NCBI GenBank assembly: GCA_030835085.1
Contig: JAUQWQ010000072.1
Coordinates: 1 to 45,072, forward strand
Source: Ignavibacteria bacterium
GTDB lineage: Bacteria > Bacteroidota > Ignavibacteria > Tepidaquicellales > OLB5
DNA: 45,072 bases
Direction: 5' to 3'
The translations under genes were made by a program, and so were the position numbers. Below the pieces are notes generated by a model. It did no database searches, was not told the origin of the DNA, and saw only the letters and a list, made by a program, of their open reading frames with translations. Below, one piece after another: positions 5,490 through 12,249 of the stretch; position 1 is the stretch's first letter; every line of letters starts with the position of its first letter.

Positions 5490-5548
5490 TACAACTAAAA
5501 TTAATGCCGGAAAATATACCAGCTAACAATACTTCAGGAAGCAGCATA

Positions 5549-6166
5549 ATGCTTAAAGCAGTTAACCTTACGAGAAAATTTGACAGAAAAGTTATTTTTG
5601 AAAATGTGAACTTCGAGCTCACCCCCTCAAGCGCAACTGCCATAACCGGCAGGAACGGCTCCGGGAAATCGACCCTGATAAAAATAATCGCTAACCTGCT
5701 TATTCAGTCTTCAGGTGAGCTGAACCTGTTTAATAAAGGCGAAAAAGTTAAAAAGGAAAATGTATTCAAATACATAGGGTTTGTATCGCCTTACCTGAAT
5801 CTATATGATGAATTTACAGGATACGAAAACCTGAAGATAATTTCCGATATCCGCGGCTCAGGTCACGGTAATATTGATAATGTATTAAAGCGCGTGGGAC
5901 TCTATAACAGGCGTAATGATCTGCTTAAAATTTATTCTTCGGGAATGAAGCAAAGGCTTAAAATTGCCTTTGCCATTTTGCATGAGCCGAAAATCATGCT
6001 GCTTGATGAACCCACAAGCAATCTTGATCTCGAAGGAATTTCTGTGGTGGATGATATAGCCAATGAATATAAGCGTGACCGAATACTGATTATCGCAACA
6101 AATGATGCGCATGAGCGTTCGTTGTGCGGCAATGAAATAAATCTGAACGAGATAAAACAAAGTTAG
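5549..6166 (+). CDS. ccmA: ABC transporter ATP-binding protein, CcmA (cytochrome c maturation)
   Basis: A small ABC ATPase of about 205 residues. Walker A is GRNGSGKST (about 34-42), the signature is YSSGMKQRL (about 131) and Walker B is IMLLDEPTSNLDLEG. Length, plus a CcmB gene as the next membrane partner, identify it as CcmA. It energises the CcmABCD complex that handles haem for periplasmic cytochrome c assembly. The frame opens at an ATG at 5504, but ATG 5549 has AGGAAG at 5536-5541 with a 7-base spacer and gives the normal N-terminus (MLKAVNLTRKF), so it is chosen. An inserted repeat element with its own gene separates it from ccmB by about 760 bases. Confidence 0.88.
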   Translation: MLKAVNLTRKFDRKVIFENVNFELTPSSATAITGRNGSGKSTLIKIIANLLIQSSGELNLFNKGEKVKKENVFKYIGFVSPYLNLYDEFTGYENLKIISDIRGSGHGNIDNVLKRVGLYNRRNDLLKIYSSGMKQRLKIAFAILHEPKIMLLDEPTSNLDLEGISVVDDIANEYKRDRILIIATNDAHERSLCGNEINLNEIKQS

Positions 6167-6170
6167 AATA

Positions 6171-6290
6171 GAACACTGATGACACTGATGATACTGATTA
6201 TCACGGATAAAACATATTCTAGGAAAAAAGATATTACATATTACAAAAAAATATCAATGTAAATCCGTTTTATCCGTTAAATCCGCGTTC
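6171..6290 (+). repeat. Repeat copy A of the GxxExxY-associated element (about 120 bp)
   Basis: The left part holds 9-bp near-tandem units (ACACTGAT, GACACTGAT, GATACTGAT) followed by TTATCACGGATAAAAC. The right part is GTAAATCCGTTTTATCCG followed by TTAAATCCGCGTTC. The inner arms CGGATAAAAC and GTTTTATCCG are inverted, and the outer ends GAACACTGAT and ATCCGCGTTC form an imperfect terminal inverted repeat. It matches copy C (6781-6901) along its full length. It begins four bases after the ccmA stop codon. Confidence 0.85.
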
Positions 6291-6341
6291 ATAATAAGGG
6301 TATTTGAGAATTATAAAATACAAACTAAACACTTCAGTCAA

Positions 6342-6743
6342 ATGATTTATACAAACTTACTGCATAAAGAAATAACTGATAAGATCATTAATTGCTTTTA
6401 TACGGTATACAATGAATTAGGTTATGGTTTCCTTGAAAAAGTATATGAAAATGCTATGAATATTGAGCTTATTGAACAGGGCATTACAAATGAAAAACAA
6501 AAACCTATAAAAGTATTCTATAAAGGACATTGTGTTGGTGAGTACTTTGCAGATATAATTGCTGATAGGAAGATCATTATTGAATTAAAGGCAAACGAAG
6601 CAATTTCTTCGGCAAACGAATTACAACTGGTTAATTACCTGAAGGCAACAGATGCAGAAGTTGGTTTGCTGTTAAATTTTGGTCAAAAACCAGAGTTCAA
6701 AAGAAAAATATTTACAAATGACAAGAAAAAATTATCAGCGTAA
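6342..6743 (+). CDS. GxxExxY family protein (PD-(D/E)XK nuclease-like)
   Basis: A 133-residue protein matching the GxxExxY family. The signature is GFLEKVY (residues 29-35). It is followed by GEYFADIIADRKIIIELKA with D71 and E81-x-K83, the PD-(D/E)XK-like core, then NELQLVNYLKAT with Q95, and GLLLNFG. The family is widespread and has no firmly known function; the fold suggests a nuclease or a derivative. The last codons and the TAA stop lie inside a copy of the flanking repeat (copy B), so gene and repeat form one unit. It sits between ccmA and ccmB. There is no obvious ribosome site before the ATG. Function beyond fold is inference. Confidence 0.9.
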   Translation: MIYTNLLHKEITDKIINCFYTVYNELGYGFLEKVYENAMNIELIEQGITNEKQKPIKVFYKGHCVGEYFADIIADRKIIIELKANEAISSANELQLVNYLKATDAEVGLLLNFGQKPEFKRKIFTNDKKKLSA

Positions 6744-6771
6744 ATCCGTTTTATCCGTTAAATCCGTGTTC
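6734..6771 (+). repeat. Repeat copy B, right half only, overlapping the end of the GxxExxY gene
   Basis: ATCAGCGTAAATCCG and the following TTTTATCCGTTAAATCC, GTGTTC match the right halves of copies A and C. The TAA in GCGTAAATCC is the stop codon of the GxxExxY gene. No left half is present directly upstream of that gene. Confidence 0.85.
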
Positions 6772-6780
6772 AAAAAGATA

Positions 6781-6901
6781 GATCACGGATGACACTGATG
6801 ACACTGATTATCACGGATAAAACTTATTTCAGGAAAATGATTTTTACATATTACAAAAGAAATATCAGCGTAAATCCGTTTTATCCGTTAAATCCGCGTT
6901 C
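6781..6901 (+). repeat. Repeat copy C of the GxxExxY-associated element (121 bp)
   Basis: It has the same order as copy A: GATCACGGAT end, GACACTGAT units, TTATCACGGATAAAAC, an A/T-rich centre ending ATCAGCGTAA, then ATCCGTTTTATCCG and AATCCGCGTTC. The centre just before the right half reads like the last codons of the GxxExxY gene (ATATCAGCGTAA). This suggests a short internal-deletion derivative of a gene-bearing element. Confidence 0.85.
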
Positions 6902-6927
6902 AATTAAAAAGCATTCAAAGGGCAATA

Positions 6928-7590
6928 ATGTTTAAACAGGCACTGGCAATATGTAAAAAAGATTTTAACAGCGAAATCCGCACGCGTTACGCCGTGAACG
7001 CCCTGCTTATGTTCATTATTGTAGTTATATCTGTAATAAAATTCTCTTTGGGCGAAGATAAGCTCTCCGCAGAAATGAACGCAGGGCTGTTATGGATTAT
7101 CATATTCTTTGCAACATCAAACGGTCTTTCACGCGTATTTGTATCTGAAGAAGAACGCGGCACATCACTTGTACTTAAATTAAGCTCATCTGCCGGTTCG
7201 GTCTTTTTAGGCAAACTTATATTTAATACGCTCTTAACTTTTATTATAAATTTCCTGATAATTTTCCTCTATATAATTATCACGGGTTTGGATATCAAAA
7301 ATCTTGCGTTATTTTCACTTACTATCGGGCTCGGTAACCTGGGGCTATCGGCAGTGATGACGATAATCGCCGCATTAATATCCAAGGCAAGCTCAAAGGG
7401 TACTCTGTACCCGGTGCTCTCATTCCCGCTGCTGCTGCCGCTTTTGCTTGCTGCAATAAGCGCAACAACGCTCACAATTGAAGGCGCGCCGATTGGCGCA
7501 ATAGCAGGTGAGCTGCAGATGATAGCTTCATATACTATTGTTGTAATTACAGCCTCGTTCCTTCTGTTTGAACTCGTCTGGCACGATTAG
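6928..7590 (+). CDS. ccmB: Haem exporter-type membrane protein CcmB
   Basis: A 220-residue integral membrane protein with about six hydrophobic helices. The CcmB family pattern is visible: an N-terminal cytoplasmic start (KQALAICKKDFNSEIRTRYA), the loop RVFVSEEERGTSLVLKLS (about 70-87), and the late stretch LYPVLSFPLLLPLLLAAI. CcmB is the permease partner of CcmA in cytochrome c maturation system I. ATG at 6928 follows AAAGGG by about six bases. The intervening repeat element may place transcription of ccmB under altered control. ccmC was not seen after it. Confidence 0.9.
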   Translation: MFKQALAICKKDFNSEIRTRYAVNALLMFIIVVISVIKFSLGEDKLSAEMNAGLLWIIIFFATSNGLSRVFVSEEERGTSLVLKLSSSAGSVFLGKLIFNTLLTFIINFLIIFLYIIITGLDIKNLALFSLTIGLGNLGLSAVMTIIAALISKASSKGTLYPVLSFPLLLPLLLAAISATTLTIEGAPIGAIAGELQMIASYTIVVITASFLLFELVWHD

Positions 7591-12118: not shown

Positions 12119-12249
12119 ATAAGCCCCGAAGGGGCGGAATATATCAGCGATGGGCGAAGCCCATCGGAACGAACAAATGAGAAAATGTTGGTCATATACA
12201 CCCTCCCCTTTGGGGAGGGTAATCACGCCAATGGCGTGATGGGTGGGGT
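12119..12249. repeat. Cluster of hairpin repeats upstream of the Ste24 gene
   Basis: Three short hairpins lie close together: CGATGGGC-GAA-GCCCATCG (12148-12166), ACCCTCCCC-TTT-GGGGAGGGT (12200-12220) and ATCACGCC-AAT-GGCGTGAT (12222-12240). A CCCCGAAGGGG stem also sits near 12124-12134. The first hairpin with its flank (ATATATCAGCG upstream, GGA downstream) recurs at 14524-14553. These are interspersed REP-like sequences, not coding. Confidence 0.75.

Follow-up and report, generated by a model that had tools for sequence, protein, structure and literature searches.

REPINs are high-copy repeats, and the RAYTs associated with them are tyrosine (HUH) transposases related to those of IS200/IS605 (PMC3116915). 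The homing endonucleases in rRNA insertions of CPR bacteria are of the LAGLIDADG or GIY-YIG type (PMC11270868). Intergenic 7-nt words occur in Xanthomonas (GGGAATC) and Nostoc (GGGGATT), with 70-75 convergent (inverted) pairs per Xanthomonas genome, and the available part of that report links no gene family to either heptamer (PMC4692102). The available portion of the work on the Coxiella intervening sequence (IVS) element describes no word arrays (PMC4990558). Environmental genomes commonly carry small GxxExxY and S23/four-helix-bundle genes, whose role is unknown. A search of an open-access library found no paper on GxxExxY function and, through the family accessions, nothing relevant; only two papers in it name GxxExxY, one of them, in the excerpt available, merely as a neighbouring domain; subscription papers and preprints lay outside the search.

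The insert between ccmA and ccmB

The window, which is the whole 45,072-nucleotide stretch analysed (an Ignavibacteria contig from genome G000), contains ccmA, encoding a haem exporter ATPase-like protein (5504..6166, + strand), and ccmB, encoding the haem exporter membrane subunit (6928..7590, + strand; PF03379, E 1e-21). The 761 bases between them (6167-6927) hold a GxxExxY gene and three related repeats, as the initial annotation had stated, and the coordinates, the TIGR04256/PF13366 matches and the repeat comparison agree with this. The gene (6342..6743, + strand, 133 codons) has its stop codon (6741-6743) within repeat B (6740..6771, with homology from 6703), confirming that it ends inside this copy; repeat B consists of a right arm only and belongs to the GxxExxY gene. 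Repeat A (6171..6290; left arm 6171-6212, right arm 6259-6290) and repeat C (6781..6901; right arm 6870-6901, stopping 26 bases short of ccmB) are complete gene-less hairpins. In both, the left arm is made of ACACTGATG-type words (GAACACTGATGACACTGATGATACTGATTATCACGGAT...) and the right arm (...ATCCGTTTTATCCGTTAAATCCGCGTTC) approximates its reverse complement. Independently of the repeat comparison, Tandem Repeats Finder reported a period of 9 at 6173, 6741 and 6784. A, B and C are the best matches in their own genome (E 1e-64, 7e-40 and 4e-14), and gene-less hairpins with the same words elsewhere in it (C35, C31 and C230) match more weakly. Moreover, repeat A is 92% alike to C, compared to 78-83% for the G007 and G004 copies.

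There is no other ORF of note in 6167-6927 and Pfam gives PDDEXK_3 only, so that no transposase, the mark of an insertion sequence or DNA transposon, is encoded, as first described. The window is without rRNA, and the insert sits between two protein genes, outside any rRNA gene. Elsewhere in the window, an Acido-Lenti-1 RNA (Rfam RF01687; 45.4 bits, cut-off 37) lies at 12122-12166 on the minus strand, directly upstream of a gene for an M48-peptidase-like protein, the listed ORF of which probably begins too early.

The GxxExxY protein (133 aa) matches TIGR04256 (E 3e-39; 134 bits, cut-off 35) and PF13366, PDDEXK_3 (E 8.5e-41; 139 bits, cut-off 22). Its catalytic residues are complete: in 72 sequences, E32 (of GxxExxY), D71 and E81-x-K83 are invariant, and Q95 is present in more than 90%. 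The AlphaFold (AF2) model (pLDDT 92.6) has Cas4 SSO0001 as its nearest fold (4ic1; Foldseek E 2.6e-4, Z 9.7), followed by the LHK-Exo and lambda exonucleases; most remaining matches have middling Z and are informative to the superfamily level only. These residues and modelled folds uphold the original PD-(D/E)XK assignment and make the protein a predicted nuclease of the Cas4/lambda-exonuclease type, whose enzyme activity is inferred. Cas4 proteins are identified by four cysteines for an Fe-S cluster and by a cas gene context; the window protein fits neither, with only two Cys and a ccm context. Between G000 and G007, the gene has a dN of 0.030 and a dS of 1.37 (about 1.4), a ratio of 0.02, compared to 0.042 for ccmB. 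By this measure, it is under strong purifying selection, stricter than on ccmB, and appears to encode a maintained enzyme.

Across the family, GxxExxY genes occur in 13 of 15 genomes in 1-9 diverged copies each, a few of them broken by internal stops. The window's own genome has two further copies with the same design and different words: one lies at the carA-carB junction and has arms CCACAGAGAACACTGAG.../...CTCTGTGCTCTCTGTGG, and the other has arms of the ACACGGAG/ACACAGAG type. An insert occupies the ccmA-ccmB junction of G000, G004, G007 and G011 and is absent from the other ten of 14 genomes, including the closest relatives G005 and G014, where the two genes lie a few bases apart or overlap; the outcome named at the start as fatal, that close relatives would all carry the insert, did not occur. 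In G011, the site has a minimal form (left arm, gene, right arm), and ccmA takes its stop codon from the left arm. The last residues of the window's ccmA are unlike those of empty-site relatives, and its final ~20 bases match G007, not the closer relative G005; an exchange of the junction along with the element would fit.

The two extra gene-less hairpins at the ccm site are found in G000, G004 and G007. In each of these three genomes, hairpin A is 91-93% identical to hairpin C, compared to 77-87% between genomes, which indicates that they have been homogenised or locally remade. In the G004 copy (L041), the right arm has been lost and the GxxExxY frame reads into hairpin C, gaining ...NTDDTDNADLHG, translated from words. 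Gene-less word hairpins number about 4-5 in 2.4 Mb of G007, according to a word-composition scan, and they are likewise few in the window's own genome; a generic hairpin scan over 1.2 Mb of G007 had been overwhelmed by terminators and AT-rich palindromes. At L008, ACGCAAAGAGCGCAAAG words form a further arm pair near 1570-1680, not far from a ACACGGAT solo hairpin, and clusters of differing word types may be common.

Word arms beside GxxExxY and S23 genes

The arms were evaluated at 128 GxxExxY genes, drawn from the own genus and from a named set covering about 20 phyla, by aligning each left flank to the reverse complement of the right flank and calling inverted arms at a score of at least 27. 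Inverted arms are present at 104 of the 128 genes (81%), compared to 1.7% of 1051 control windows at the same loci; 19% of GxxExxY genes have no arms at this threshold. The initial annotation had expected the repeats to recur beside other GxxExxY genes, and repeats of the same kind do; a single repeat sequence does not. The recurring feature is a class of word arms, the sequence of which varies per element. For example, words in the named set include AACACGGATGACACGGAT, GACAGGATTAACAGGAT, CCACGAATTAACACGAAT, CCGCCAAGGACGCCAAG and CCACTGAGGACACAGAG, and another clade uses CACTAAG and GACAGGATTA. The spacing of the words is 9-10 nt in GxxExxY arms and strictly 7/14 in the arms of S23 genes.

The word composition of the arms follows protein identity (Mantel r 0.489, 0/2000 permutations), compared to 0.078 in the outside flanks. 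Among pairs less than 60% identical, the relation is 0.38, against 0.00 outside. Further, left and right arms agree at 0.76 in register versus 0.56 when shifted by one word, and the in-register alignment is better in 76 of 83 cases. The arms were chosen by their own left-right match, which inflates the left-right similarity and leaves the Mantel correlation unaffected. Overall, the unit occurs in about 20 phyla, with relationships that cross phyla and words that change with the protein.

The same frame surrounds a second family. S23/four-helix-bundle genes (TIGR02436) are present in 14 of the 15 genomes, and 44 of 57 (77%) have inverted arms, compared to 0.6% of controls. Their arms have a strict 7-nt period (autocorrelation 0.60 at lag 7 and 0.64 at lag 14). 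The family is unrelated to GxxExxY and has no nuclease fold, yet it shares the arm design. It also shares sites: at carA-carB, G011 and G003 have an S23 element and G008 and G000 a GxxExxY element (L079 and L080 versus L019 and L020), and the junction before an MBL-fold-like gene holds GxxExxY in some species and S23 in others. In G007, carA-carB has a different hairpin insertion (ACCCCACCTAAATCCTCCCCGAAGGGGAGGA...) in place of a word-arm element. At one junction, two S23 subfamilies with different words occur across species of the genus and family (L088, L089 and L097 versus L095 and L101). Within the window, a one-sided array of 7-nt words (ATTTGAC/ATTTCAC/GTTTCAC) at 1197-1255, between two minus-strand genes, resembles an S23-type arm without a gene or partner.

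Insertion, probable mobility and possible mechanisms

Comparison of filled and empty sites against G007 identified blocks of ~420-490 bases at positions where 1-6 bases separate the aligned flanks of the empty site (5-6 bases at L030, L255, L261 and L265, 1 at L259, 5 at L257, and 5 at the S23 locus L107). The initial annotation had proposed looking for empty sites and a target duplication: sites lacking the element exist, at ccm and elsewhere, but no target-site duplication is consistent among the filled/empty pairs, and a possible TAAA at L030 is unrepeated elsewhere. Both neighbouring genes are codirectional with the inserted gene in 67 of 85 cases, compared to 477 of 855 gene triples in G007 (p 3e-5). 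The operon's genes stay intact upon insertion, since the preceding gene has its stop at or within the left arm and the following one begins past the right arm. Judging from these alignments, the unit inserts precisely between neighbouring genes, usually in the operon sense.

A Salinivirgaceae copy (L109; Bacteroidota, 73% identical) groups with the copies of the window, G007 and G004 in the protein tree, with support of 95/89, and the G011 ccm-site copy (69% identical) branches outside this group, though G011 ccmB is 92% identical. The Salinivirgaceae copy lies on a short MAG contig that could be misbinned. The simplest reading of the tree at the ccm junction would be two arrivals, or a replacement. 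A recent lateral arrival of the G000 copy is unsupported: the synonymous divergence of the gene from G007 is similar to that of ccmB, which makes the window copy old and not a fresh insertion, and with an old element, loss in G005 and G014 is as possible as gain in G000. GxxExxY has no phage match and only one viral contig, and almost no plasmid association (8 plasmid records only, all non-mobilizable); a phage or plasmid vehicle was rejected on these grounds.

It is very likely, from comparing related species, that the gene makes up a single unit with its arms, which a given site either carries whole or lacks; the earlier view that gene and repeat behave together is borne out by this and by the frequency of arms. 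It is also highly probable, on comparative evidence without any movement having been shown, that the unit is mobile and laterally transferred, and so the mobile part of the original proposal of a mobile or self-spreading element stands while self-spreading remains undemonstrated. The reading favoured here, by a modest degree of confidence, places the insert in a class of very small mobile elements, each with one gene between inverted arms built from short, degenerate words, which in GxxExxY arms recur every 9-10 nt (e.g. ACACTGATG). Its starting points are established by sequence comparison (the unit, its precise insertion, the co-evolution of word and protein, the homogenisation of arms and selection on the active site); its mechanism is inferred. 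That the protein acts on the arms as DNA is close to an even call, with no binding or cutting data. GxxExxY would be a nuclease specific for its own words, recognised either as DNA or in an arm hairpin/cruciform, and would cut or trim there; repair would then copy the element, or use one arm as the template for its partner, which could keep the arms matched, yield gene-less hairpins and let the unit spread. The few gene-less hairpins found, unlike a busy mobile repeat, count against this explanation.

The S23 parallel is its main difficulty. S23 genes share the design without a nuclease fold, so what the two families have in common cannot depend on a nuclease, and two further schemes were considered because of this parallel: copying driven by the host, in which the protein is a partner specific for the words, and an RNA role like that of the IVS. 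In the latter, the arms would pair in the polycistronic transcript, the insert would fold away or be cut out (RNase III-like), the protein would act on RNA, and mobility would be passive. This is unlikely, although the arms are in-register complements, the insertions lie in sense orientation within operons, and S23, the protein of rRNA IVSs in the available account (PMC4990558), has the same design and sites. Whether treated as RNA or as DNA, repeats A and C are predicted to fold only marginally better than shuffles (z -1.2 to -1.9), without strand bias, for which reason structure alone was left out as evidence. Pairing alone explains neither the tandem words nor their tracking of the protein, and DNA nucleases are the closest structural matches.

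A host function (repair, regulation or defence) would make the arms regulatory binding sites around a gene that moves only by ordinary recombination and lateral transfer. A dN/dS of about 0.02, many sites that persist vertically across the genus, and the expectation that an autoregulator would likewise produce word-protein co-variation keep it in consideration; it is nonetheless improbable in view of a scattered distribution, as many as nine diverged copies in a genome, precise insertion of the unit with both arms, gene-less hairpin copies, and the absence of a GxxExxY match in PADLOC defence models (at E 0.1) or PHROGs. Finally, that small ORFs arose by chance in degenerate intergenic repeats has only the few broken copies with internal stops behind it and is scarcely credible against the arm statistics, word co-evolution, purifying selection and an active site invariant across phyla.

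The reading as small mobile elements can be extended, more tentatively and at somewhat less than even confidence, to a single pan-bacterial class of mobile DNA ("word-arm elements"), in which unrelated, interchangeable proteins (the GxxExxY nuclease paired with 9-nt words and the S23 four-helix ring paired with 7-nt words) recognise their own words and host replication or repair copies and inserts the element; the 23S rRNA IVS would be the special case that landed in rRNA. A link between the heptamer repeats of Xanthomonas and Nostoc and S23 elements is our suggestion, with no data behind it. The shared frame of inverted word arrays points to a shared biology and gives GxxExxY and S23 a concrete test substrate, their own words. 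It would explain many unexplained intergenic tandem repeats and possibly the origin of rRNA intervening sequences, and, if the reading is true, it describes a mobile element without any recognised recombinase.

Comparison with known systems

A mobile unit of gene plus arms of this kind was not found described in the open-access literature searched, and an earlier description cannot be ruled out. Cas4 and lambda-type exonucleases share with the window protein the order of active-site residues (acidic/ExK/Q) and are its closest folds; it differs in having only 133 aa, no Cas genes nearby and no match in a PDB sequence search. Like the homing endonucleases of introns and rRNA insertions (PMC11270868), GxxExxY is a nuclease gene that is the sole cargo of a small insertion, with the same site re-occupied in related hosts; unlike them, it has no evident intron and inserts between genes.

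The 23S rRNA IVS with S23 is closer in form. In the portion of its description available (PMC4990558), it has one small ORF between inverted repeats and no transposase, and it is described as selfish. The window element meets the IVS definition in its inverted-repeat termini around one ORF and fails it in not lying inside an rRNA gene; it stands between protein genes and encodes a protein with a nuclease fold. The S23 genes outside rRNA have their design and insertion sites in common with the GxxExxY elements.

The REPIN-RAYT definition is unmet, with no HUH/Y1 transposase (Pfam: PDDEXK_3 only) and without many dispersed doublets. GxxExxY units differ in that the protein is of the PD-(D/E)XK type, a genome has several diverged copies and few solo hairpins, and the arms consist of 9-nt tandem words. 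Even so, the likeness to REPIN-RAYT (PMC3116915) is substantial in organisation: repeats flank the gene, gene-less doublets exist, and a dedicated protein is accompanied by its own inverted short repeats, the type of which follows the protein clade.
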